From Rhodospirillaceae bacterium (GTDB lineage: Bacteria > Pseudomonadota > Alphaproteobacteria > Bin65): a DNA stretch of 64,000 bases. This document shows positions 4,357 through 29,242 of the stretch, in pieces. The stretch's first letter is position 1. Each line of letters begins with the position of its first letter. The notes below the pieces were generated by a model. That model made no database searches. It was given only the letters and a program-made list of their open reading frames with translations, and was not told where the DNA came from. The DNA lies in assembly GCA_026709535.1 (NCBI GenBank), contig JAPOST010000184.1:1-64000 (forward strand). The letters are read 5' to 3'. The position numbers and the translations under genes were made by a program.

Positions 4357-6255
4357 CTACTCTGCCGCCTGTTTCATTGGCTGCCGGACTTGCATCCACT
4401 TCTGAAAGATCGGTTGTTTGGGTGGCTCCAGATGGGTGTCTGCCATACAACGGGCCTTGAGATCTTCCATGGTGCCGCCGGTATCAAACAGCTTCACCTC
4501 ACCGCGGTTGGTCGCCATGCGGTCGCGCAGACCCGTGGTCGCCCGTTCGTCAACGGACAGGTCTTCGTTCAGCACCACACCATAGCGTTTGGCCCCGTCC
4601 ATGGTCACCAGACCGCGTTTTGTGTCCAGCGCCACCCTTTCGGCATCGCGCTTCAACGGATCACCCCAGCCGCCGCCGCCCCAAGTGTTGAAGTAAAGCG
4701 TGTCGCCCGCTTCGACTTTGATGCGGTCGCACTTGCTTTCCATCCACTCTTGCGTACCGTCGCGCCGGATCATCAACTTGTTGCTGCGCCGGCCGGGCTG
4801 ACCACCGTTGACGCCCCATGGATGGGTAAGCCAGCGGTCGTCATGGATGGAAATTTCTCCAGGTTCCAGGAACTGATAGCCCATGGAGAGGCCGTTGCCG
4901 CCACGATGCAGGCCCGGGCCGCCGCTGTCGGCGATCGTCTCGTACCGGACGATCCTAAGCGGAAAATAAGCTTCCAGGAACTCATTGGGCACGTTGGTGA
5001 AGCTGGGCCACAGCGAATGGCCGTCAGGTCCGTCGCCCGCCGGCCGGCCCGGCACGCCGCCGAAGCCGATCTGGTAGAGTTGATACCACTCGCCCTCCTT
5101 GTCGTAACCCGAATACATGAAATGCGGGCTGTCCGAGAAACCGGCCGCACACAAGGCATCCGGCGATCCCTGACCGAGCAGGCCCGACATGATGTCAAAA
5201 ATCCGCGCCAGCATGTGTGTCCGCGAACTCAGCGCCGCCGGACGGATCGGTTTCAGGATTGTTCCGCGCGGGATTCGGACGTCAACAAGGTCGTAGAAGC
5301 CATCGTTGAACAGGATCTGCGGATCGAAAATGTTGATGAAGAAGGAGCCCAGGAACATCTTGAACATCTCCTCGTTGAGGAGAAAGTTCACCGAACTGAT
5401 GGATTGCGGGTCAGTTCCTTCAAAATCGAAAATGACCCGCTTCCCCTCGCGCCACATCGTACAGGCGATCTTGTACGGCCCCATGCCCAAGCCGTCGTCG
5501 TCGATGAAGTCCTCGAAATACTGCGGCGCTTCCGGGATCACCATCTGCAGGATTTCCTGCATTGCCCGCTTGTTGCGGTCGAGCATTTCCTGCATCGCGT
5601 TGTGCAGAACATCGACGCCGAATCGGTCCGCCATCTCGACGACACGCCGCTCTGCAAGACGCAGCGCCGCCACGATGGCGTTGAAATCCGACCGATTCCA
5701 GTCCGGCAGGCGGCAGTTGCGCAGGATGAGTTCCAGGATCTCCTCGTTCAGCTCACCGTTCCTGTAGATCTTTGTCGGCGGGATCTGGATTCCTTCCTCG
5801 AATATCTGCGCAGCATCGGTAGGCAAACTGCCCGGCACCTTGCCGCCAATATCCGTCATGTGTCCGAACATGGCGGCCCAGGCGACGATCCGGCCGTCGA
5901 TATAGATCGGCATCATGGTCAGCCAGTCGTTCAGGTGACTGATGGCGCCGTTGCAAAAATAGGGATCGTTGGTGAGGAAGATGTCACCTTCCTCAATGTC
6001 GCCATCATAGCCCTGCTGGAATCCATGGAAGAACGAACCGAACTGGCCAACCACCATCTTGCCATCAGCATTCGCGATCATCGGGAACGCGTCGTGTTGT
6101 TCGCGAATGCCCGGCGACATGGCGGTTCGGAACAGGACCGCGTCCATTTCCGTCCTCGCGTTGCGCATGGCGTTCTCAATGATATCGAGGGTGATGAGGT
6201 CCAGATCGACCTTCTTGAAGGGCGTCGGATTGCTCTGGATGACGCGTGCTGGCAT
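4357..6255 (-). CDS. hyuB: Hydantoinase B/oxoprolinase family protein (HyuB-1)
   Basis: 632 aa; LITLDIIENAMRNARTEMDAVLFRTAMSPGIREQHDAFPMI..., NDPY, GAISHLND, HMTDIGG motifs, C-terminal GDTLYFNTWGGGGWGDPLKRD. Confidence 0.93.
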   Translation of the reverse strand: MPARVIQSNPTPFKKVDLDLITLDIIENAMRNARTEMDAVLFRTAMSPGIREQHDAFPMIANADGKMVVGQFGSFFHGFQQGYDGDIEEGDIFLTNDPYFCNGAISHLNDWLTMMPIYIDGRIVAWAAMFGHMTDIGGKVPGSLPTDAAQIFEEGIQIPPTKIYRNGELNEEILELILRNCRLPDWNRSDFNAIVAALRLAERRVVEMADRFGVDVLHNAMQEMLDRNKRAMQEILQMVIPEAPQYFEDFIDDDGLGMGPYKIACTMWREGKRVIFDFEGTDPQSISSVNFLLNEEMFKMFLGSFFINIFDPQILFNDGFYDLVDVRIPRGTILKPIRPAALSSRTHMLARIFDIMSGLLGQGSPDALCAAGFSDSPHFMYSGYDKEGEWYQLYQIGFGGVPGRPAGDGPDGHSLWPSFTNVPNEFLEAYFPLRIVRYETIADSGGPGLHRGGNGLSMGYQFLEPGEISIHDDRWLTHPWGVNGGQPGRRSNKLMIRRDGTQEWMESKCDRIKVEAGDTLYFNTWGGGGWGDPLKRDAERVALDTKRGLVTMDGAKRYGVVLNEDLSVDERATTGLRDRMATNRGEVKLFDTGGTMEDLKARCMADTHLEPPKQPIFQKWMQVRQPMKQAAE

Positions 6256-6270: not shown

Positions 6271-8643
6271 CTAATGGCTGGCCGGCGTGATGAGGATGTT
6301 GCCCACTTCATCCACTTTGCCGATGTGATCGTTGAGAATCATGGTGGTGGAGTCCATCTCGGTAACGACAGCAGGGCCGGTGATCCGATCGCCGGCCTTC
6401 AAGGACAGGCGGTCAAAAATCTTCGCCGTATGCTCCCGGCCGTCGACATACACTCCAGTCTGCTCGTAGGCTGCACCCGAAGGATCGCCAGTGCCGTGGT
6501 CAAGCTGGTGCGCTTTCGCCGAACTCTCCCGGCCCTGGACCAGGGCGCGAAGGTTGTAGCTTTCGTGCATGGCATCAAGCCTGAAGGTGAAAAGCTGTTC
6601 GTGCATCGCATCGAAACGGCGCGAGACTTCCCGGAGGCCGCCTTGCGCAAATTCTTCCGGTGTGATGTCGACAGTCAGCTGCATGCCTTGACCGTGATAG
6701 CGCAGGTCGATCTGATACAGCGTCGTCTGCTCGTTGCGCGGCACGCCCTCTGCATTCAAAGCCTCCGCCGCCTGTCGCATCAGGCCCTCCAGCTCATCGG
6801 CCACCTCGGCATCTGACGTTTCATCGAAACGGCGTACGAATGTTCGCGAAGCCTCGTCCCGCACCCGGGTTGTCGCGTCTCCATAGGCGCACAGCACGCC
6901 CGGACCTGGCGGAATGATCACCGGCCAGGAGTTCATCAGCTTGCCCAGTGCGTTGGCGTGCAGGGGCCCGGCGCCGCCAAAGCCAATCAAGGCAAAGTCA
7001 CGCGGGTCAAAGCCCTTCTCAACTGACACCAGCCTCAGGGCGCCGAACATGTTCTCGTTGACGATGTTGATGATTCCTTCAGCGGTGGCCTTTACAGGCA
7101 GATCCATTGCCTTGGCGATCCTGGACACCGCCGCTTCGGCGGCTTCGACATCCAGCTTCATGTCGCCGCCCAGGCGAGCATTGGCGGGCAGATAACCCAA
7201 GACGACGTTTGCATCCGTGACGGTCGGCTCGCCGCCTCCCTTGCCGTACGCCGCCGGGCCCGGTTCGGCACCGGCGCTCTGGGGACCGACGCGCAGGGCC
7301 CTTGTCAATTCCGGCACATAGGCAATGGAGCCGCCGCCAGCGCCTACGGTGCGAACATCGACGGAGGACGCCCGCACGGTGACATCGGCCACACGGGTCT
7401 CGCGTCGCGTCTGCGCCACGCCGTCCTGGATCAGCGCCACATCCGTCGAGGTACCGCCCATATCGAAGGTCAGCAGTTGGTCAAAGCCGGCTTGCTTGGC
7501 CATCCAGATGGCGCCGGACACACCACCGGCCGGTCCGCTCATCAGCAGGTTGACAGGCGTGGCCTTGGCTGCCTCGGCGCTCGCCAGACCGCCGTCAGAG
7601 CGGAGGATGTGAAGCTGGACGCCATTCATTCGGCGATCCAGCTCGGACTTCAGGTTTTCGATATATTTCGAGACGACCGGCCGGATATAGGAATTTACAA
7701 CCGTTGTTTCCGTCCGTTCGTACTCATACATCTCCGGGACGACTTCGGAGGAGATGGATACCGGTATGCCCGGCAGCATCTCTTCGATGACCCTCCGGAC
7801 CCTTTGTTCGGTGGCCCCGTTGGTATAGGCGTTCAGGAGCGAGACGGTCATCGCCTCGATGCCTTCCCCCTGCAGCTTCCGCAGGTCGCGCCGCAATGTC
7901 TCTTCGTTCAGCGGATCGACAATCTCGCCCCTTGCACCCATGCGCTCGTCGGCTTCAAGCGTCAGTTCCAGCGGCGCGAGCGGATCGGTCTTGTTGAAGA
8001 TCACCCAGCCCCCCAGGCCGCCGGGCACATAGGACCGGGCGATCTGGAGGGTTTGCTTGTAGCCCTTGGTGGTCACCAGACCGACGCGCGCGCCGCTCCC
8101 TGTGAGCACGGTGTTGGTGGCGACCGTGGTGCCGTGCATTACCGATCCGATGGCCGACGGTTCAATTCCGGCGATCGCGCAAATGCGCTCGATTCCATTC
8201 AAGACACCGCGCGAAGAATCGTCGGGCGTCGACGGCACCTTGGCCGTGAAGGTCTGTCCCGTCGCCTCTTCGATCAGCAACAGATCGGTGAAGGTGCCGC
8301 CCACATCGACACCAAGCTGGTAGCCGCCTCCCAAGTCAAGACGCCGTCGGGGCGTCGCCGTCGGGGCGGGGCGACGATGCGCAGCCAGCGCCGATGCGGC
8401 GTTTCTGGCTTCGTGAACGTCGTCGGCCACAGCGCTGCCGTTGCGACCGACCTCCGAGGTTGGCGTGCCGCGGCCCGGCCGGGTCGAGGTCCGGACTGCT
8501 GGGGCTGACGTCGTCTGTACGGCCGTTGCATCAGGTTCTGCGGCTCCAGCTGCGTCGCCCTTTCCAAGCTTGTCGATCTGCTTCTGGAGATCGTCAAGCT
8601 TGCTGTCAAACCAGCTTGTCAGATCATTTTCGGAACTGGTCAT
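6271..8643 (-). CDS. hyuA: Hydantoinase A/oxoprolinase family protein (HyuA-1) with ~105-aa N-terminal extension
   Basis: 790 aa; [58 protein letters not shown] motifs all intact. Confidence 0.93.
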   Translation of the reverse strand: MTSSENDLTSWFDSKLDDLQKQIDKLGKGDAAGAAEPDATAVQTTSAPAVRTSTRPGRGTPTSEVGRNGSAVADDVHEARNAASALAAHRRPAPTATPRRRLDLGGGYQLGVDVGGTFTDLLLIEEATGQTFTAKVPSTPDDSSRGVLNGIERICAIAGIEPSAIGSVMHGTTVATNTVLTGSGARVGLVTTKGYKQTLQIARSYVPGGLGGWVIFNKTDPLAPLELTLEADERMGARGEIVDPLNEETLRRDLRKLQGEGIEAMTVSLLNAYTNGATEQRVRRVIEEMLPGIPVSISSEVVPEMYEYERTETTVVNSYIRPVVSKYIENLKSELDRRMNGVQLHILRSDGGLASAEAAKATPVNLLMSGPAGGVSGAIWMAKQAGFDQLLTFDMGGTSTDVALIQDGVAQTRRETRVADVTVRASSVDVRTVGAGGGSIAYVPELTRALRVGPQSAGAEPGPAAYGKGGGEPTVTDANVVLGYLPANARLGGDMKLDVEAAEAAVSRIAKAMDLPVKATAEGIINIVNENMFGALRLVSVEKGFDPRDFALIGFGGAGPLHANALGKLMNSWPVIIPPGPGVLCAYGDATTRVRDEASRTFVRRFDETSDAEVADELEGLMRQAAEALNAEGVPRNEQTTLYQIDLRYHGQGMQLTVDITPEEFAQGGLREVSRRFDAMHEQLFTFRLDAMHESYNLRALVQGRESSAKAHQLDHGTGDPSGAAYEQTGVYVDGREHTAKIFDRLSLKAGDRITGPAVVTEMDSTTMILNDHIGKVDEVGNILITPASH

Positions 8644-8667: not shown

Positions 8668-9321
8668 TTAGTGCCGGTTTCGGCCGCGCCAGTGTTCCAG
8701 CCAGTCGATCACGGACTGACAATCGGTTACGTCCGCATAACGCCTCTCGATATCGCGCAGGTTGTCCCGGTGCGGGCGTTCGTGCTGGTCGCCGACGCAA
8801 TCTTCCGGCACGATCGTGCGATACCCCCACTGAAAACTGTCGATGACGGAGGCGCGAATGCACCCGCTGGTGACACACCCGGTCACGATGACAGTGTCAA
8901 CCCGCTCTCTGGAGAAGAATGAGACGAGCGGAGTCTGAAAAAATATCGAAGCCCCGGATTTGCAGAACGCAACGTCATAACCGGCATCGTGGATACGAGG
9001 GTCGATTTCCGTTGACGGATGACCATGAACCAACTCCTCCGTCACCGCCCTGATCTTCCAATAGGGAGTATCTCGCCCGGTCCCGGAATAAGCGGTATAG
9101 CATGTGGCGACCGGGACGTCTGCAGGCCGCGCAACATCCAGCAATCGCGCCGTATTGCGTACCGCGCGATGAATCAGAGGCGCCCCGCCGAGCGGGTATT
9201 GCGAATCGGTAAATCCGGTCTGGAAATCTACGACGATGATGCCCGGCTTGTCGCCAAAGCCGATATCAGACGCGCCGTAAGTGCGCTCGTCATAGACATG
9301 CGTCGAGGTATCAACGGTCAT
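8668..9321 (-). CDS. Isochorismatase-family cysteine hydrolase (N-carbamoylsarcosine amidase / maleamate amidase-like)
   Basis: IIVVDFQTGFTD (catalytic Asp region), FCKSGAS, VIVTGCVTSGCIRASVID with catalytic Cys context, IVPEDCVGDQHERPHRDNL; start at MTVDTSTHVYDERTYG. Confidence 0.88.
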   Translation of the reverse strand: MTVDTSTHVYDERTYGASDIGFGDKPGIIVVDFQTGFTDSQYPLGGAPLIHRAVRNTARLLDVARPADVPVATCYTAYSGTGRDTPYWKIRAVTEELVHGHPSTEIDPRIHDAGYDVAFCKSGASIFFQTPLVSFFSRERVDTVIVTGCVTSGCIRASVIDSFQWGYRTIVPEDCVGDQHERPHRDNLRDIERRYADVTDCQSVIDWLEHWRGRNRH

Positions 9322-9475
9322 GATCACTCCCACAGGGCCCATCCGGGGCCGGTCAGCAGAAAACCAGATTGCGCCGGTTGAGTCCAAGCCATTTGGCAAT
9401 CGCGACGGAAACCGCTAACTTTCGGCGGCCCGCTGGTCCGGGCGCTTACTTGCCAACAACCGTCTTCCGGGATTC

Positions 9476-10534
9476 ATGGACAACAGGTCTGCAGCCTTTC
9501 TTGAAGTCATGATCGGCATCGCCGTCGTCGGTGTGCTGGCATTTGCAGTCTTTCTGCTCGCTGGCCGTATCCGCATGGCCACTTCCGCCGGAACGCGGTC
9601 TCTCAACATTCGCTGGCCGCAGATTGTTCTGGCGGTCATTCTGCTGGTTGTGGTTGTACTGGCGTTGTTGTGGCAGTTTCCGCCGCTTGATGGAAGCAGC
9701 GGCCTTGCTGCTGGCGGCAGTTGGCGCGTCGATCCGGACGCGTGGACCTATTTCACCATCATGCTGGTCGTCGCCGGCGCGGCTGTACTGATCTTTCTGG
9801 CGGCACTGATGATCCGGTCGAATCCCCGGCTGGCAAAGGACCTGGCAGAAGAAGATGCCGAGGTCGCCGTGCCGGTCGCGGTTGAAACGCCGTCGTCGGC
9901 GCGTCTGCTCGGTCTGGTGCTGCTCGTCATCGCCATCCTGTTGTTGACGTGGATCTACCTGACGCCTGATCTTCAATTCGTCCTGATGCAGCAGGTGCTG
10001 TACCCTGTGTCGCTGGCCGTGGCCGTCGTCATGCTGTTCGACAAGGCAACACGGACCTGGAGCGCCAAGAACGGCGGCGAGACGTTCCGGGAATGGCTAC
10101 TGTGCGACCTCATGGTCTTTTTGCTCATCCTCGGCTTCCTGAACCTTCACGAATTGAAGGCTGGGGCAGAGTACGAAGCCTTCCTGTGGGATATGATCCA
10201 CCTGATCGCGTTTTTCCTGGTGTTTTGGCTACTGGACCGCAAGCTGACGCGGGTCCGTTTCCTGATTGCATATCTGTACCTCACGCTGCTACCGGTCCTG
10301 CTCCTGATCTGGCGGGCCGCCCAAAATGTCGAGACACCTGAAGATGCCGAATGGTGGAGGACGATCTGGCCGATGTTCTTCCTCGGCGTGATCTTCTTCG
10401 TGCTCGAGTTGATCGCCGCGATCACCTCAAGCGACCGGAAAAAGCAGGCCATCCCGTCGATCAAGGACGCGCTGTATGTGATCCTGGCAGCCATTACGCT
10501 GATTGCCGCTGTGCCGACCACGGCGGCATCGTAG
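9476..10534 (+). CDS. Multi-pass membrane protein of unknown function
   Basis: 352 aa, about 9-10 hydrophobic segments, intact ORF, 6 bp ahead of the amidase gene; no family recognised. Confidence 0.7.
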   Translation: MDNRSAAFLEVMIGIAVVGVLAFAVFLLAGRIRMATSAGTRSLNIRWPQIVLAVILLVVVVLALLWQFPPLDGSSGLAAGGSWRVDPDAWTYFTIMLVVAGAAVLIFLAALMIRSNPRLAKDLAEEDAEVAVPVAVETPSSARLLGLVLLVIAILLLTWIYLTPDLQFVLMQQVLYPVSLAVAVVMLFDKATRTWSAKNGGETFREWLLCDLMVFLLILGFLNLHELKAGAEYEAFLWDMIHLIAFFLVFWLLDRKLTRVRFLIAYLYLTLLPVLLLIWRAAQNVETPEDAEWWRTIWPMFFLGVIFFVLELIAAITSSDRKKQAIPSIKDALYVILAAITLIAAVPTTAAS

Positions 10535-17935: not shown

Positions 17936-19027
17936 CTAGGGATTCTGCTCAAGCAGAACACCGGCGTCAGCAGGCCAGCAGACAACCTCGTCCTCGCCCT
18001 CTTCATACATGCGGTCCGATACGCCCCGGTGCTGCTCGACCGAAACGTAGAAATCCGACCCAATTTCGAAAATGTCTGTTTCCAGAGAGCCTTTGAATTC
18101 CGTGGTGACATACTTGCCTTCAATCCGGTTCGCCATGTCAGGGCGCTCACCGGTGTGCATGAGATCTGAGCGGACCGAGAAATACGCTTCGCGGTCGACA
18201 TGAACGGCTGAAATGTAATCCGGTGTGCGTACGTAGAACATTTTCCCGAAGGCCTCGACCAGCACGATGGATCCGGTTCGCGAACGGACGACGCCCTTGA
18301 ACAGATTGTTGTTCCCGATGAAGGAAGCGACGAAGCTGGTGCGCGGTGCCTCGTAGATTTCACGCGATGTGCCGGTCTGCTGGATGAGGGCGTCACTCAT
18401 CACAATAACCTTGTCGGCCATCGACATCGCCTCTTCCTGCGAATGGGTGACCATGACGAAGGTGATGCCCGTGTCCCGCTGGATCTTCTTCAATTCGTAG
18501 ATCATCGATTGGCGCAGGTTATAATCCAGTGCGCCCAGAGGCTCATCAAGCAGAAGCACTGTCGGCTCGCTGATCAGGGCCCGCGCGAGGGCCACGCGCT
18601 GCTGCTGCCCCCCGGAAAGATCATGGGGCTTTCGGTCGGCCAGCGGACCAAGGCCGACCATCTCCACCATCTGCTGGGCGCGCTTGAAGCGCTCCTCCTT
18701 GGGGATGCCTTGCATCTTCAAGCTGAATTCGACGTTCTGCTGAACGTTGCGGTGCGGAAAGAGCGCAAAGCTCTGGAACATCATCGACGTGTTGCGCTGG
18801 GACGGCGGCAGGTCCGTCACGTCCTTGCCAGCGATATAGATCTTGCCCTTTGTCACTTCCTCCAGACCGCCGATCATCCTCAGCGTCGTGGTCTTCCCGC
18901 AGCCGGAGGGGCCCAGCATGGCCACGAATTCGCCGCGCCTGATCTCGCAGTTGAAGTCAATCACTGCCCGAACACCGCCTGGGTAGGTCTTGTCTACAGC
19001 CTGAAGAACCACATCATGATCGGTCAT
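17936..19027 (-). CDS. ABC transporter ATP-binding protein (PotA-like)
   Basis: GPSGCGKTTTLRMIGG (Walker A), LSGGQQQRVALARAL (signature), VLLLDEPLGALD (Walker B), C-terminal TOBE-like region. Confidence 0.95.
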   Translation of the reverse strand: MTDHDVVLQAVDKTYPGGVRAVIDFNCEIRRGEFVAMLGPSGCGKTTTLRMIGGLEEVTKGKIYIAGKDVTDLPPSQRNTSMMFQSFALFPHRNVQQNVEFSLKMQGIPKEERFKRAQQMVEMVGLGPLADRKPHDLSGGQQQRVALARALISEPTVLLLDEPLGALDYNLRQSMIYELKKIQRDTGITFVMVTHSQEEAMSMADKVIVMSDALIQQTGTSREIYEAPRTSFVASFIGNNNLFKGVVRSRTGSIVLVEAFGKMFYVRTPDYISAVHVDREAYFSVRSDLMHTGERPDMANRIEGKYVTTEFKGSLETDIFEIGSDFYVSVEQHRGVSDRMYEEGEDEVVCWPADAGVLLEQNP

Positions 19028-19057: not shown

Positions 19058-21616
19058 CTAGTCCGACTTCTCCGTCAAGGCAGACAACAATGACCAGATG
19101 GTGGCGAACGGCACATCCTCGAAGCCGCCCCGGGCGACCAACTCCTTCAGCACGCCAACCGCGCGCTGCCGGGCCGGATCGTTGCCGGCGGCTTGGTCCA
19201 GCGTCTTGATGGCTTCGCTCAGCGGCGCTTCCTGCGCCTTCTTGGAGCCGAACTCCTTGTCCACCAAAACCTTGAGTTGCGAATGCGTCTGCAACAGCAG
19301 GCCGCTGTCCGCCGGACGCCCGAACAGGCCGCGCAAGCCGTTAGCGTTGAACCGATCGCGCAAGCCTTCCGGCATTGAATGAGCCAAGCCATCCATGGCT
19401 TCTCCCAAGCCGAAACCAGAATTGAACAGCCCGCGAATGGTATCCATCGTGCCATCGTTGCTGCCGCCGTACATGCGGATATGTGCGCCTTCCAAGGCGT
19501 TGCCCATGGCCCTGGCTTGGTCGATGTGAACATCGCGCTCGGCCTCGATGAACAGTCTGGACAGCTCGAGGAACATGGCTGCTTCGTTGTATTTCTTGAG
19601 GGCGTCGGCCTTGGCTTCCATCCCCGCCGCCTCGGCCTTGAGCTTTTCTTCGACCCGCCGTACTCGCAGGGCCTCGACCGCCATTTCCGCCCGGCCGCGC
19701 GCGCCAGCCTCTTTTTCGATGCCCTCGGCCGAGATTTTCTGGGCCTCGCTTTGCGCGCCGGCGCGCGAAAGCGTGGCCGCCGCCTCGTTCTCGGCTGCCT
19801 TCTGACGGGCCTCCGACTGGCTCAGCATATGCATGCTGGCGATCTCAGCCTTGGCATGCTCAGCAATCCGCTCGGCTTCGGCCAGCTTCTCGGCATCAAT
19901 CCGGCGCACCTCTTTCTCGCGCTCTGCATCCGCCAGGATGCCGGCGGCATTGGCCGCATGGGACGCGCGAACCTTGTCGGCAGTGACCGCCAGGCGTTCG
20001 GCTTCGGCTGCCTCCAGTTCTCGCGTCTTCTGCTGCAGGGCGATCTCGCGAACCCGCTCTTCCTGCTCGCGTGCCTGGAAGCGGCGGATATCCGCAATCT
20101 CGCGCTCCTGCTCCTTCTCAATCAGCGCAATCTCGCGAACCCGCTCCTCGACCTCGATCGTCAGGGCCCGCTTGATTTCAGCAGCTTCCTTCCTGGTGCC
20201 TTCCTCGATAATCGCCACATCTTTCTCGATCTGAGCGGCTTCAAGGGCTTGCGCCTTTTCCAGTTCCTCCTGTTGCACCGACCAGCGCTGCTCGATGATG
20301 AAGCGCTGGGTTTCGCTCATCGCCTTCGCCTTCTCGTTCGAGACCTCGCGCTCCTGCGCGGTGGCGGCAAATTCCTCTTCCTTGTCGAGATCGAGCAGGC
20401 TCAGCTTGGTCGCCAGACTGAGCTTGCGGGTCTCCAGTGCGGCGTTCTCCGCCGCCTTGTGGCGGGTGACCCGAGCCAGCTCTTCCTCAGCAGAGATGAC
20501 GGTGGTCTGGCCGATGTCGGCTTTCTGACGCTCGACCTCCTTCTCCACCAGAGCTATCTGCTTGTCCTTTTCAGCCCGTTCGCGCGCCAGCGTCCGATCA
20601 ATCTCTGCCAGTTCCTCTTCCTTGGCCTTGGCAATAATCGCGATTTCCTTGTCCCGGCGCTCCTGCTCGATCTTAAGGGTTTTCTGGATTTCGGAGGCTT
20701 CGCGCTTCTCGGCTTCTTGCGTTACTGCCAGTTCGCGGTCAGTGCGTAACTTTTCCAGTTCAACATCGTTGGAAAGTTCCTGCTCTTCCACAGCCTTGCG
20801 CTGGTTCAGTATGAAAACCTGTTTTTCGCGCATCTGCAGGGCTTGTTCGTTCGATATCGCCTTGTCCTGATTGGCTCGGGCCGTGGCTTCCTGGCGTTCG
20901 ATTTCCAGAAGTTCCAGTTGAGTATCGAGGTCCTTCTGGCGGATGGCAACGGTTGTTCGCTTTTCGGTGTCGTGGACCTTGCGTTTTGCATCACTGGTGA
21001 TCTCGGTGATGATCTTCAAACCTTCAGCGTCAAAGACATTGTCGGTCTTGAAATGCTCCTTGCCGGTCTGCTCCAGCGTCGCAATCGTCACTTCTTCCAA
21101 GGTCAGGCCGTTGGCGCTGAAGCTCTCGGTGACATTCGACTTGATGGCCTCGGCCAGTATTTCGCGGTTTTCGTGGAGTTCCTTCAGCGATTTCGTGGCG
21201 GCATAGCTGCGCAGCGCGCCGACGACCTTGGCCTCCAGCAGGTTGCGGACCTTTTCGGGATCAAAGGTTTTTTCGCCCAGGCTGCGGCCAGCGATGAGCA
21301 GCTCCTGCTCGGTACGGCCGACATGCGTATAGAGTTCGGCAGAAACGTCGATTCGGACGTTGTCGTGGGTCAGCACGGCCTGGTCGCGTGAACGGGCGAC
21401 GATCAACTTTATCGTTTCCAAGGAGACCCAGGTAACTTCGTGAAAGACCGGCAATACAACGGCGCCGCGTCCTAGGCATACCTTGGTGCCCAGGAAACCG
21501 GTTCGGATAAATCCCATGTTGGAGGGTGCTCGCTTGTACACCCAGATCGACAGGATGTAGATGATCGCAATGATAATGATCGCCAGCACAATTCCGACGA
21601 TAATGCTCTCAATCAT
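19058..21616 (-). CDS. Flotillin/SPFH-domain protein with a very long coiled-coil region
   Basis: 852 aa; N-terminal TM (IIVGIVLAIIIIAIIYILSIWVY), SPFH region, ~400-aa Glu/Lys/Ala-rich helical repeats, C-terminal flotillin-like tail. Confidence 0.88.
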   Translation of the reverse strand: MIESIIVGIVLAIIIIAIIYILSIWVYKRAPSNMGFIRTGFLGTKVCLGRGAVVLPVFHEVTWVSLETIKLIVARSRDQAVLTHDNVRIDVSAELYTHVGRTEQELLIAGRSLGEKTFDPEKVRNLLEAKVVGALRSYAATKSLKELHENREILAEAIKSNVTESFSANGLTLEEVTIATLEQTGKEHFKTDNVFDAEGLKIITEITSDAKRKVHDTEKRTTVAIRQKDLDTQLELLEIERQEATARANQDKAISNEQALQMREKQVFILNQRKAVEEQELSNDVELEKLRTDRELAVTQEAEKREASEIQKTLKIEQERRDKEIAIIAKAKEEELAEIDRTLARERAEKDKQIALVEKEVERQKADIGQTTVISAEEELARVTRHKAAENAALETRKLSLATKLSLLDLDKEEEFAATAQEREVSNEKAKAMSETQRFIIEQRWSVQQEELEKAQALEAAQIEKDVAIIEEGTRKEAAEIKRALTIEVEERVREIALIEKEQEREIADIRRFQAREQEERVREIALQQKTRELEAAEAERLAVTADKVRASHAANAAGILADAEREKEVRRIDAEKLAEAERIAEHAKAEIASMHMLSQSEARQKAAENEAAATLSRAGAQSEAQKISAEGIEKEAGARGRAEMAVEALRVRRVEEKLKAEAAGMEAKADALKKYNEAAMFLELSRLFIEAERDVHIDQARAMGNALEGAHIRMYGGSNDGTMDTIRGLFNSGFGLGEAMDGLAHSMPEGLRDRFNANGLRGLFGRPADSGLLLQTHSQLKVLVDKEFGSKKAQEAPLSEAIKTLDQAAGNDPARQRAVGVLKELVARGGFEDVPFATIWSLLSALTEKSD

Positions 21617-21702: not shown

Positions 21703-23937
21703 TCATGTCTGGTTCCGGCGTCCGGCGCCGCGGGACCGCCTCAGGGTTTCCCGCAGATCCTGCGTTGCCTTCCTGTCTACTTGGCAAGTTTCCGGCAGTC
21801 CCGTCAAAACCACGCCATACTGATCCTTTGCCGCCGCCGTCGAGACGAGACCGCGACGCACATCATTTCGCACGGCATCTGCAGTGCGGTCCAGCGGGTG
21901 GCCCCACCCGCCGCCCCCGGCTGTCCGGAAGATCAGCCGGTCACCCGGTGCCACCAGAACATTGTCTACCTTGGACGGCATGACTTCCCGGGTTCCGTCC
22001 GCACGAGCCATGATCTTGGCCGACGATTGTCCTGCATCGCCGCCAGCGGCGCCCCAAGGCCGTGATTTGTCGCGGTCATCCCGCCAATTAACCACACCAG
22101 GCACTCGGAAACAGTAGGTCTTCTCGACGCCGCTGCCTCCCCGGTGTGCGCCGGGGCCGGCACTGTCCGAAACCGCCATCACCTTCTCGACCACCACCGG
22201 CGCATCCAACTCTACCTGCTCCGTCGGTCGGCTCTTGGCATCAGCGGAAAGCGACCGGCCATCCGCCCCGTCACCCCCAGCCCAAGCGGGCGTTCCGCCA
22301 AACACCCGATCAGCCATGTGGAACGGTCGGCCGCTAGTGTCTTTTCCCAGATATCTGACATTTGGACTGGAGCCATATCCGGCAGCAGACTGAATGTCCG
22401 TCGCAAATTGTCCGATCACCCCATTCAGAACGTCATGGACCCGCGCCAACGTGTGGGCCTGATTAGCCTGTGGGGCGGGAAAGGTCGGACGCAGAAGGCT
22501 GCCGTCAGGCACAGTCACCCTGAACAAGTCGGTCAACCCGTGATTGATGGCGATCTCTGGATCGCACGCCTTGATCAGCAAACCGCCGAACAGAAGCGCC
22601 AAGCCGACATTGTCCAGATTGAGATTGATCGGACCGGGGGCTTGTGCGGATGTGCCAGTCCAGTCGACGAAAGCCCGGTTCCCTTCGCGCCAGATGGCAA
22701 CTTTCAGTGTGAACGGGCCGTTACCGCAACCGTCGTCGTCAACAACATCCTCAAAAGACTTCGGCTCCTTCGGGATGCGCGCGGCGATCAGCTTACGGAC
22801 CGCCCGATTGGTGCGCTCGATGGTTGCGGCGCAAGCCCGGCGATAACCCTCAATACCGAAGCGGGCACACAGATCGGCAACCCCGTGAGCGCCAGTCTGC
22901 GCCGCCGCCGTCAATGCGCGCAGGTCGGCATGACTGACGTTTGGATGGCGCGTGTTCTTCAGGATCAAGGTCAGCGCATTGCCGTCGGCAACGCCATCCT
23001 CGTAAATCCGCATCAGTGGAATCTGCAGGCTCTCGGCAAAAACGGAATCGGCCGTGACGGGGGCGCTACCCGGCGTCTGGCCGCCGCTATCCACCATCGG
23101 TGCAGACGCGGCGCAAAACCCGACCAGATCGCCTTGCGGTCCGTTGCTGAAGATTGGCGCAATGACTGTCCAGGATCCAGGCGTTCCTCCACCATAGGGG
23201 TCGCTGACCAAATACACATCGCTGGCGCGGGGCCGTGCATCCTGCCTGCTGACAAGGGTTTCGACGGCAGGGGAATGCCCTCCGACGAGGACAGCGCCAC
23301 GGCTGTCGGTGATCGACAAGGCGTTGTTGGCCTTCCGGCGCGCCGATTCGGCGACGGCCATCTGTCCGAGCACAAGGCCAGCCTCTTTCCGGATCTGGCG
23401 CCAGGCTGCTTCGATGCGATCCAGCACCAGTGAATCCTGCGTTGACGCGGCGCTTGATCCGGTCCGCGCCACTGGCCCCGGTGATGGCGCCGAAATGGTT
23501 GATGACCGCGCGGTCTTGGACGGACGCGCGCCATGCGCCAAGGCCTCCGCCGCCTTGGTCAGGGCCTTCTGACGCGCCGCATCCAGCGCGGCCTGCTCGC
23601 CGTCGCGAAGGAGCGCGTCGCCAAATTCCAGCACCGACCGGTCGTCAACCGTCAGGCGATACAGGGCTGACAACTGACCGCCAGTGATCTTGGTTTCCAC
23701 CAGTTCGGCAAACCAATTATTGCCAAAGCGCTTATTTAGTACCGCGTCGACATCAGGATCATCTGGTTGCGCAGACCCGACAGGCGATGGCGAGTTGTCG
23801 ATGCGTCGTTCCGAGCGACCGCGCAAACCTGCGGCATTCGCCTCACGAAGCCGGTCTTCAAAGGCACGTTCAAACTGATCGCGACTGGATTTTAGCAGAT
23901 CGTCGAGAGCAGACGGGGAAGCAAGGGTATCGCTCAT
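21703..23937 (-). CDS. HyuB-like protein, motif-degenerate (HyuB-2), with ~170-aa N-terminal extension
   Basis: 744 aa; HyuB scaffold recognisable (LVSDPYGGG..., DSGGQTPGSAPVTADSVFAESLQIPLMRIYEDG, C-terminal GDRLIFRTAGGGGWGHPLDR) but His motif residues are substituted. Confidence 0.85.
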   Translation of the reverse strand: MSDTLASPSALDDLLKSSRDQFERAFEDRLREANAAGLRGRSERRIDNSPSPVGSAQPDDPDVDAVLNKRFGNNWFAELVETKITGGQLSALYRLTVDDRSVLEFGDALLRDGEQAALDAARQKALTKAAEALAHGARPSKTARSSTISAPSPGPVARTGSSAASTQDSLVLDRIEAAWRQIRKEAGLVLGQMAVAESARRKANNALSITDSRGAVLVGGHSPAVETLVSRQDARPRASDVYLVSDPYGGGTPGSWTVIAPIFSNGPQGDLVGFCAASAPMVDSGGQTPGSAPVTADSVFAESLQIPLMRIYEDGVADGNALTLILKNTRHPNVSHADLRALTAAAQTGAHGVADLCARFGIEGYRRACAATIERTNRAVRKLIAARIPKEPKSFEDVVDDDGCGNGPFTLKVAIWREGNRAFVDWTGTSAQAPGPINLNLDNVGLALLFGGLLIKACDPEIAINHGLTDLFRVTVPDGSLLRPTFPAPQANQAHTLARVHDVLNGVIGQFATDIQSAAGYGSSPNVRYLGKDTSGRPFHMADRVFGGTPAWAGGDGADGRSLSADAKSRPTEQVELDAPVVVEKVMAVSDSAGPGAHRGGSGVEKTYCFRVPGVVNWRDDRDKSRPWGAAGGDAGQSSAKIMARADGTREVMPSKVDNVLVAPGDRLIFRTAGGGGWGHPLDRTADAVRNDVRRGLVSTAAAKDQYGVVLTGLPETCQVDRKATQDLRETLRRSRGAGRRNQT

Positions 23938-25940
23938 GGACGCCGCCTTGCTTCGTCAGGCGTCAGGATGAGGGAGCCAGCTGCATCCACGGTCGCATCA
24001 TAGTCGCCCTGAACAACCGCCGTTGACCCTTCGGACGTCACGAGTGCGGGGCCGGGCACGACATCACCGGCCTTCAGCAGGGCCGCGCGATAGACCATGA
24101 AGTTCCGGAAGCCATTATCCAGAAAAACCCGCTGCTCGCCGACGCGGGCTGCAGACGGATCACCCCCACCTGATCGCTGCGGCGCGCCAGCACCGTTTCG
24201 GGTGAGCCGGTTGCGGTCGGTGGCAACAGCCCGCACCCGCGCCATCTCCACCGGTCGGTTCAGCCGGACTCCATGCGCTGATTCAAACGCAATCTCGAAC
24301 CGGTTCGAAAGTTCTTTCAGACCCCAGTTCGGCAGATCATCGGGTCGGAAGTCGAGAGTGATGTCCTTTCCCCGGCCGCGGTAGCGCAGGTCGGCCTGGA
24401 AGGCGACATGTCGGTCAGTCTCGCCGACATCCTCCTCTTCAAGCCACTGGGTGGCCTCGGTCGCCAGTGTGTCGACCAGATCGACCATTGAGACGGCCTT
24501 CATGTCATCCACCAAGGCGCGGCAACTGCGCCCGAATTCCCGACGGGCACGGCCTTCCAGAAATCCCCTAACCGTCATCATCGCGGGCATTGCCGGGATG
24601 ATGACCGACGCGCTGGCGCACAGAGCGCCCAGCGCATTGCCGTGCAGCGGACCAGCCCCACCATAAGCAATGATCGGCAATCCGGCAACATTCAGGCCAT
24701 GCACCACTGCCGTCTGGCGCAGGGCGCCGTAGAGCTTCTCGTTCGCCACGTCACGAATGCCTTGTGCTGCCCTGTGAAGAGTTACCCCCAAATCACCCGC
24801 TATTTGACCGATGGAGTCCTCCGCAGCAGCCAGATTCGGGCTGTTGCCGTCACTGCTCGCCGGGATCAGGCCCAGGACAACATTGGCGTCTGTCAGGGTC
24901 GGCGACCCGCCGCCGAAGCTGGCAGGGCCGCTGGCGGCACGCTCCGGCCCGATTCGGATGGCACCGTGATCGGTCACGCGCACCAAGGCGCTGCCTCCGA
25001 TAGCCGTCACCATCATATCGACGGACGGCAGCATCAGGTTGACGCCGCCAACAGCGGTCTTCCGCGCGATTGCCGCCGCGCCGTCCACGATGGCGCCGAT
25101 GGCAGCCTCGGCACTGCCCATATCGAGCGCTAGGGCATCGCGACGGCCGGTGCGCGCCGCGACAGCGGCGGCGGCCGTAACGCCAGCTGCAAATCCGGCG
25201 TTTAGCGCCTCGACAGGGCGTTCGGCGGCATGCGCCACGGTCATGGAGCCACCATCCGACCGCGCAACGCGAATGCCAGTGGACAGATCCATCCTGTGGA
25301 AGGCTTTGGCAAGAGCATCGAAATGCGCGACAAGGACTGGTCGGTGCGCCGCGTCGAGAACCGCAGCTACCGTCCGCTCATATTCCGCCGCCTCCGAAAC
25401 AACGTCACTGGACAGTGTAACGGGGAGAGTATCGGCGATATCTTTGACCAGCCTTCGCAGATTACGCTCGTGTTCCGGATTAGCCGTCGCATTGAGTAAG
25501 GACACCGCAATCGCCGTCGCGCCGCTGTCAAGCAGCGACCGGATCGCCATTGATGCAAGGTTTTCGTCGACAGGCTGCCGAATCTGTCCGTCAGCACCAA
25601 CGCGTTCCGGCACGCCAAGCGTTGCCACCACCCATCCGTCGGCAGCGGCGCCGCGTTGCCCTCGCGCCAAGTGGAGAACATGTTCAAACCCGGCGGTAAC
25701 CAAGAGGCCGACTAAAGGAGCCGATCCGGTGATCGGCGCAGGCGCCGCGTGGAAGACAGCATCAATGTCACCGGGAGCAATGCCGGCATCGGAGGAAATC
25801 TGGCGGATGCCGTCAGCAATGCCGGCAACCGGATCACCATCGCGATTCGGCGATTTCAAGGGATGCGGCGCGCCGGTCTCGTCAATGAGCAGCAGGTCCG
25901 TGAAGGTCGCTCCAATATCAATACCCAATTGGCTGGTCAT
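23934..25940 (-). CDS. HyuA-like protein, motif-degenerate (HyuA-2)
   Basis: Start MTSQLGIDIGATFTDLLLIDE; full-length HyuA scaffold ([28 protein letters not shown]); ATGA overlap with HyuB-2. Confidence 0.85.
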   Translation of the reverse strand: MTSQLGIDIGATFTDLLLIDETGAPHPLKSPNRDGDPVAGIADGIRQISSDAGIAPGDIDAVFHAAPAPITGSAPLVGLLVTAGFEHVLHLARGQRGAAADGWVVATLGVPERVGADGQIRQPVDENLASMAIRSLLDSGATAIAVSLLNATANPEHERNLRRLVKDIADTLPVTLSSDVVSEAAEYERTVAAVLDAAHRPVLVAHFDALAKAFHRMDLSTGIRVARSDGGSMTVAHAAERPVEALNAGFAAGVTAAAAVAARTGRRDALALDMGSAEAAIGAIVDGAAAIARKTAVGGVNLMLPSVDMMVTAIGGSALVRVTDHGAIRIGPERAASGPASFGGGSPTLTDANVVLGLIPASSDGNSPNLAAAEDSIGQIAGDLGVTLHRAAQGIRDVANEKLYGALRQTAVVHGLNVAGLPIIAYGGAGPLHGNALGALCASASVIIPAMPAMMTVRGFLEGRARREFGRSCRALVDDMKAVSMVDLVDTLATEATQWLEEEDVGETDRHVAFQADLRYRGRGKDITLDFRPDDLPNWGLKELSNRFEIAFESAHGVRLNRPVEMARVRAVATDRNRLTRNGAGAPQRSGGGDPSAARVGEQRVFLDNGFRNFMVYRAALLKAGDVVPGPALVTSEGSTAVVQGDYDATVDAAGSLILTPDEARRRP

Positions 25941-28039: not shown

Positions 28040-29110
28040 CTAGTCAGCCATCTGGGTGACTGGCCGGGCGGCCCCGTCGCGGGGATAACGCTGCAGGAAA
28101 TCTTCTGCAATTTGGTCGAAGGTAACCCAGCGAACGCCGGTATGCCGACTGATATACTCGAACACTCGTTCCAGCATCATCAGCACCTGCGGACGCCCTG
28201 AGACGTCCGGATGAATCGTTAGAGTGAACACGGCGTAGTCGTATTCGCGATAGACCCAGTCGAACTGCTGGAGCCAAAGGTCTTCGATATCCCGCGGATT
28301 GACGAATCCGTGGCTGTTGGGAGAACTCTTGATGAACATCATCGGCGGCAGGTCGTCCAGATACCAACTGCCCGGGATGTCGACGAGATCGGTTTCGTGC
28401 CCGCGCACCAACGGCTTCATCCATTCTTCGGCCTTCTTGGAGTAGTCGATCTTGGTCCAGCGATCCCCAACTCTGGCGTAGAAAGGATGGAAGTCGTTGT
28501 TCATCAGGCTGTGATCGTATTTGATGCCTTTTTTCAGTAACAACTCGTTCGTGATCGGGCTGAATTCCCACCACGGTGCGACGTAACCGGTCGGCCGCCG
28601 GCCAGACAGCCGCTCAATCAGTTCGATGCACTTGTCCATCACCGTCTCCTCCTGCTCGGGAGTCATGGAGATGGGGTTTTCGTGCGAATAACCGTGCATG
28701 CCGATCTCATGCCCGGCGTCCACAACCATTTTCATTTCTCTCGGGAAGGTTTCGATCGAGTGGCCAGGGATGAACCACGAGGTACGAATGCCAAACTTGT
28801 CGAACAGTTTGACCAGGCGCGGAGAACCGACTTCACCGGAAAACAGGCCGCGGGAGATATCGCAGGGCGAATCCTCGCCTCCGTAAGAACCCAGCCAACC
28901 GGCAACAGCATCGACGTCTATGCCGAAGGCGCAGAAGATTTCTTTCTTGCCGACGCCAGTTGCCGGTTGCGGCAGTACGGAGCGAGTGCCGGGGGCGGCG
29001 CCGGATGGCGGCGCGCCAACCTGGTCGAGCAACGAACGAGGCCGATATCGCGGGCCAATGCCGCCAGACTGACGCGCCGTGCGGTAGCTCTGGTTGTTTT
29101 CGTCGCTCAT
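28040..29110 (-). CDS. Polysaccharide deacetylase-fold hydrolase (PgdA / cyclic imidase / PuuE-allantoinase-like)
   Basis: [23 protein letters not shown] (D-D region), [18 protein letters not shown] (HxxxH metal motif), [24 protein letters not shown]; start at [17 protein letters not shown]. Confidence 0.85.
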
Positions 29111-29242
29111 CTTCTGGTCCCCGAATTCGACTGATTTCAGCAAAGAGTGGCCATTTTTGCAGCGCAGTGCAATGGCTGGATGCACAGTTGAGGCGTGATG
29201 TCGGCCATAACCGCCTTTTCAGCGCCGCTTTTGTCGTTTTGT

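Follow-up and report, generated by a model that had tools for sequence, protein, structure and literature searches.

Why would a bacterium retain two complete, adjoining genes for an enzyme whose catalytic residues have largely disappeared? The question is raised by a 64,000-nucleotide stretch of DNA from a Rhodospirillaceae bacterium (assembly GCA_026709535.1, contig JAPOST010000184.1, positions 1 to 64,000; hereafter the window), which carries three HyuA/HyuB (hydantoinase/oxoprolinase) gene pairs, the second of which, HyuAB-2, had been described in an initial annotation as a full-length but motif-dead pair. HyuAB-2 has the marks of a pseudoenzyme, in that catalytic residues are lost while orthologues keep them and purifying selection acts on the genes, and the best-supported reading is that it is probably maintained for a structural or tethering role.

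The HyuA-2 open reading frame (ORF; 26036-23934, minus strand) encodes 700 amino acids (aa), orthologues indicating M33 (25940) as the probable start, and is joined to HyuB-2 by an ATGA overlap. Pfam matches above the gathering score (Hydant_A_N/Hydantoinase_A/Hydant_A_C in HyuA-2, Hydantoinase_B in HyuB-2) and the HyuB fold of the predicted HyuB-2 model place the pair in the HyuA/HyuB superfamily. In caprolactamase of the same superfamily the metal ligands are CapB D41, H99, D102 and H124, the alanine mutant of each being inactive, and CapA D11 and D295 sit in the two phosphate loops (PMC8453981). The alignment register sets CapB SHILD (H99, D102) against TPGS and CapB GHLTD (H124) against APMVD of HyuB-2, while CapB D41 aligns with the Asp in REQHD of HyuB-1, a position occupied by N204 in HyuB-2 (REQHD to RRKAN). 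Since this register puts N204, a deletion, S255 and P280 at the ligand positions, HyuB-2 is without all four ligands and lacks the Asp-His-Asp-His metal site of an active ATP-dependent hydantoinase or lactamase. Two of these changes, the removal of SHLND (by a 4-residue deletion) and GHMTD to APMVD, had been recognised earlier, the REQHD loss had been overlooked, and NDPY to SDPY does not belong among the lesions, as canonical HyuB-2 orthologues likewise carry SDPY or SDPF.

In HyuA-2 every substitution listed earlier is present in the sequence. Judged by the HyuA motif definitions of PMC5214803, the protein lacks the DxGGT of PHOSPHATE-1 and PHOSPHATE-2 and the ADENOSINE motif GxxPGP; the Asp residues of both phosphate loops are kept (D40 and D305, corresponding to CapA D11 and D295). 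The term motif-dead is overstated for HyuA-2 in view of D40 and D305. The accompanying proposal that catalysis is lost agrees with the absent metal site and the damaged nucleotide motifs, from which a catalytically inactive pair would be predicted. The other two pairs of the window (1 and 3), said to keep every motif, do retain the catalytic ones, pair 3 with conservative variants.

An orthologue of HyuAB-2 is present in 6/6 sampled genomes of the same genus (55-57% identity), so that the pair occurs in 7/7 species when the window is counted; members of this genus include Spongia_Bin9 as well as bin65, which comes from the sponge Aplysina aerophoba. Both genes lie on one contig beside CobW and/or the gene for an SPFH protein in 4/6 congeners, and in the other two (G004, G005) the pair is divided between the ends of two contigs, the HyuB-2 portion adjoining SPFH. 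All seven species lack the four metal ligands and GxxPGP, and no stop was found in the HyuAB-2 stretches seen in them. HyuAB-1 of the same species keeps its motifs in the aligned sequences, with 78-90% identity to the HyuAB-1 of the window. Local decay or an assembly error was considered and rejected, as the six congeners, from separate assemblies, show the same class of lesion.

Selection was examined within the genus by pairwise Nei-Gojobori (NG86) ratios of nonsynonymous to synonymous substitution (dN/dS) with bootstrap. The values are 0.17-0.27 for HyuA-2 and 0.25-0.28 for HyuB-2 (bootstrap upper bounds 0.25-0.51), against 0.06-0.15 for HyuA-1/HyuB-1 and 0.04-0.12 for the SPFH protein in the same genomes, and 0.05-0.14 for close pairs of canonical HyuAB-2 from one related group. 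Purifying selection acts on HyuAB-2, though less strongly than on the working enzyme. The distribution of the constraint within HyuB-2 is inverted: in canonical HyuB-2 the metal-site region has a dN/dS of 0.06 and the N-terminal domain (aa 60-137) 0.33, whereas in the genus of the window the metal-site region is the fastest part (0.32) and the N-terminal domain the most constrained (0.10), the canonical ratios being approximate because dS exceeds 1 and the contrast holding also with dN alone. The corresponding interaction in identity gives a permutation p of 1e-4, in a test which treats sites as independent and uses regions picked after viewing the block table. A gammaproteobacterial trio (L095/L105/L106) differs in the same direction as the genus, its HyuB-2 domain (0.096) being slower than the metal-site region (0.168), while in the sister pair L093/L096 the dN is 0.311 for the domain and 0.076 for the metal-site region.

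HyuB-2, with its protected front end, was modelled from a 30-row alignment (predicted local distance difference test score, pLDDT, 80), the single-sequence prediction (pLDDT 36) being unusable. The model comprises a helix (11-35), an alpha-beta-beta-beta-alpha domain (63-134) and the HyuB core. Foldseek matches the core to HyuB enzymes (TM-score 0.83 normalised to CapB) and the N-terminal domain weakly to Rv1738 and double-stranded RNA-binding domains (dsRBDs; E-value 0.02 at best). The domain thus has the topology of the dsRBD fold in a predicted model with weak Foldseek E-values; in sequence it matched no Pfam family, dsRBD families included, up to an E-value of 10. In seven genomes (L086, L088, L090, L092, L098, L100, L104) HyuB-2 has the helix but not the dsRBD-like domain, and none of these genomes yielded HyuAB-1. 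HyuA-1 carries an N-terminal tail of the LTxWFDxxLxxxxxxFDxLG type followed by a proline-rich linker in seven SPFH-cluster genomes; G288 has a long extension with its first residues unread, and the stretch is too short to judge in G004 and G195. Where the genome gave no SPFH match, most of 20 HyuA-1-like proteins start straight at the core, the exceptions being G090 and G373 with a different short helix and G320 with a proline-rich stretch. The HyuA-1 tail and the HyuB-2 helix may dock on one partner.

To place the loss in a wider context, genomes of GTDB species were scanned for the locus with the neighbouring SPFH protein, yielding 39 loci in alphaproteobacterial, gammaproteobacterial and SAR324 assemblies. 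Outside the genus and three further lineages, every readable HyuA-2 and HyuB-2 (about 25 genomes, at the same locus in other families and phyla) has every motif, and therefore the ancestor was of the active type. With motif columns near-invariant across these canonical loci, and with each congener again showing the HyuB metal-site lesions, the lesions are not chance. Canonical orthologues, which the initial annotation would have taken to imply local decay, do exist, but only outside the genus, within which the lesions are fixed; they therefore date the loss and do not refute retention. The three further lineages have a degenerate HyuA-2: the gammaproteobacterial trio (NSTSIPS, SSSACA, DWGGSTTE), L103 of the Minwuiaceae (IEVGRTFTD, DMGGTSTV) and L101 (HGARFAAD, DMGGTSTG). 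At least four changes of the HyuA-2 state fall on the SPFH tree, which rejects a single clade for the degenerate forms (p 1.4e-6). The HyuB-2 tree joins all degenerate rows (support 99) with a long-branch flag, and does not reject a position of the trio beside its SPFH sister group (p 0.30); row L122_B1 (branch 8.2), evidently a wrong sequence, was excluded from use. The origins of degeneration number from one, if the pair was transferred, to four; recurrence of HyuA-2 degeneration is likely, not proven.

These data suggest that the ancestor of HyuAB-2 was an ATP-dependent cyclic-amide hydrolase of the active type, residing in a conserved uptake and catabolic cluster, and that the genus would have lost metal binding in HyuB-2 and normal ATP handling in HyuA-2, yet kept the pair. 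As the protection has moved from the active site to the front-end domain, HyuAB-2 is probably a structural partner and not an enzyme. The HyuB-2 helix and dsRBD-like domain may tether the pair to a partner, either the SPFH oligomer, HyuAB-1 or both, while HyuAB-1 would do the chemistry beside the importer. The non-catalytic role proposed initially agrees with the relocated constraint; regulation and sensing have no specific evidence. SPFH proteins such as flotillin are known to form membrane-attached cages (PMC11260169), and an SPFH-anchored assembly by the ABC importer may therefore be a reasonable model. A more elaborate version is put forward tentatively, as possible and the less probable of the two: an SPFH-anchored import-and-hydrolysis assembly with two HyuAB pairs, one of which was independently made purely structural in several lineages, its dsRBD-like tether coming under stronger selection than in the working enzyme.

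The earlier suggestion that HyuAB-2 partners HyuAB-1 is consistent with its distribution, which is suggestive only. HyuB-1 (82-90% identity) occurs in 24/39 genomes, one of the copies being partial and lying at the end of a contig. All 11 sequences with a degenerate HyuA-2 are from genomes having HyuAB-1, and 11 of the 24 canonical ones are from genomes without it (Fisher p 0.007, ignoring relatedness). Three of the latter (L088, L100, L104) are chromosome-level records, and therefore an intact HyuAB-2 can stand alone. Several observations weigh against a purely structural pair linked to HyuAB-1. With both phosphate-loop Asp residues, HyuA-2 may have kept the ability to bind nucleotide or hydrolyse it slowly. 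The metal ligands of HyuB-2 are retained in L101, L103 and the gammaproteobacterial trio; these lineages may be intermediates or represent different solutions. With phylogeny taken into account, the HyuAB-1 link is not significant, in a phylogenetic pair test with too few pairs. L101 combines a degenerate HyuA-2 with the absence of the dsRBD-like domain, and in five genomes the domain occurs without HyuAB-1, so that domain and partner are not strictly linked.

Among the alternatives, it is unlikely, although the least so of the three, that HyuA-2 is neofunctionalised and still uses nucleotide, in a metal-free reaction or as a nucleotide-dependent switch. The retained Asp residues, the GKTFTD/E of loop 1, DMGGG and GAGGG common to the six congeners, and a loop-2-to-adenosine region still among the more constrained parts of HyuA-2 (0.165) would agree with this, but the adenosine motif has gone genus-wide, the metal-site region is the fastest part of HyuB-2, and the window species, the most eroded, has lost further glycines (DMGSAEAA, AIGGSALV). 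That erosion, and dN/dS values 1.4 to 4.6 times those of HyuAB-1 in the same genome pairs, could also indicate a pseudogene in progress, its frames preserved by polarity and translational coupling as the first in an SPFH/ABC operon, as the same-strand order of HyuA-2, HyuB-2, SPFH and ABC ATPase genes (gaps -4, 86 and 30 base pairs, bp) would allow. Such slow decay is nevertheless the more doubtful of the two, given close-pair ratios far below 1 and the presence of the pair in all seven species with no stop in the stretches seen, on which the initial view that this is no simple decay also holds; moreover, it does not predict an N-terminal domain evolving slower here than in the canonical enzyme. 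An ordinary HyuAB enzyme with unusual but working motifs, for which retained fold and length might speak, is very improbable, as four ligands whose single-alanine equivalents are dead in caprolactamase (PMC8453981) are gone in all congeners.

A maintained, inactive HyuAB-2 may be compared with several known systems. Caprolactamase CapAB of Pseudomonas jessenii (PDB 6YRA) shares the two-subunit alpha/beta organisation, the HyuB fold and the phosphate-loop Asp residues, but has the metal ligands and GxxPGP and lacks the N-terminal helix and dsRBD-like domain added in HyuB-2. The acetophenone carboxylase core complex (PDB 5L9W) contains two different HyuA-type subunits, one touching only the other alpha (PMC5214803); there both alpha subunits keep ATP motifs and a gamma subunit is present, whereas here there is none and pairs 1 and 2 were found to co-occur. 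In N-methylhydantoinase (PDB 9H03/7HK5), the best match in sequence and fold, which was deposited as an enzyme, A and B are fused in a single chain, and HyuAB-2 is encoded by two genes. Inactive metallopeptidase homologues have likewise lost catalytic and metal residues while retaining the fold, with a scaffolding role proposed (PMC11266112), but in HyuAB-2 the losses extend to both subunits of an enzyme encoded by two genes. The alpha-beta-beta-beta-alpha topology predicted for HyuB-2 aa 61-136 is shared with dsRBD-like folds such as Rv1738 and the RNase III dsRBD; this HyuB-2 domain has no sequence-family match, and RNA binding is not indicated for it.

Pseudoenzymes are known; here both subunits of an ATP-driven enzyme are hit, with genus-wide retention and a measured transfer of constraint, and no paper combining hydantoinase with pseudoenzyme was found in the literature searched. 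Canonical and degenerate forms at the same locus with the same neighbours constitute a clean comparative system, in which one can test whether HyuAB enzymes operate in assemblies of higher order linked to the membrane. Genome annotation would class HyuAB-2 as a functioning hydantoinase. An enrichment of HyuA/HyuB genes in sponge symbionts has been reported (PMC5649159), and therefore the number of working copies matters for reading that enrichment.

Table 1. Location of HyuAB-2, its altered motifs and domains, and neighbouring genes in the window
Feature	Position	Strand	Remarks
HyuB-2	21703..23937	-	744 aa; HyuB-type subunit, metal site dead, N-terminal extension
Former metal-site region, aa 176-310	23008..23412	-	N204 = CapB D41; 4-aa deletion and S255 = H99/D102; P280 = H124
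dsRBD-like alpha-beta-beta-beta-alpha domain, aa 60-137	23527..23760	-	predicted model; most constrained HyuB-2 part in genus
N-terminal amphipathic helix, aa 8-35	23833..23916	-	SLDDLLxANKxQFDxxFxxQM type; conserved wherever HyuB-2 N-terminus seen
HyuA-2	23934..25940	-	ASKHA-type ATPase-like subunit, motifs damaged
ADENOSINE motif GxxPGP	24912..24938	-	lost via 2-residue deletion; absent in 7/7 genus species
GAGGGSIA to AIGGSALV	24981..25004	-	motif changed
PHOSPHATE-2 loop DMGGTSTD to DMGSAEAA	25101..25124	-	Asp kept
SGPAGG to NAGFAAG	25182..25202	-	motif replaced
HGTTVxTN to HAAPAPIT	25728..25757	-	motif replaced
PHOSPHATE-1 loop GIDIGATFTD	25896..25925	-	Asp kept; canonical [10 protein letters not shown]; congeners GIDIGKTFTD/E
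SPFH (band-7) protein, long helical region	19058..21616	-	86 bp after HyuB-2; cluster marker
PotA-like ABC importer ATPase	17936..19027	-	30 bp after SPFH gene
HyuA-1	6271..8643	-	motifs intact; N-terminal tail and linker about 100 aa
HyuB-1	4357..6255	-	metal-site motifs intact; 88-90% identity across genus

The conserved cluster contains the ABC importer, the SPFH protein, CobW and a PuuE-like deacetylase, frequently with an isochorismatase-like hydrolase, an amidase and HyuAB-1. The SPFH protein (852 aa) is without an NCBIfam model and shows 84% identity within the genus. The L095 genome (G416) has two HyuB-1 copies with near-equal scores on different contigs. An ORF resembling a polytopic membrane protein (window 9476-10534) is a conserved member of the cluster in several families; it matched nothing in Pfam or NCBIfam. 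The PuuE-like deacetylase (28040-29185) and the isochorismatase-like hydrolase (8668-9399) hint that the substrate is a cyclic ureide or amide.

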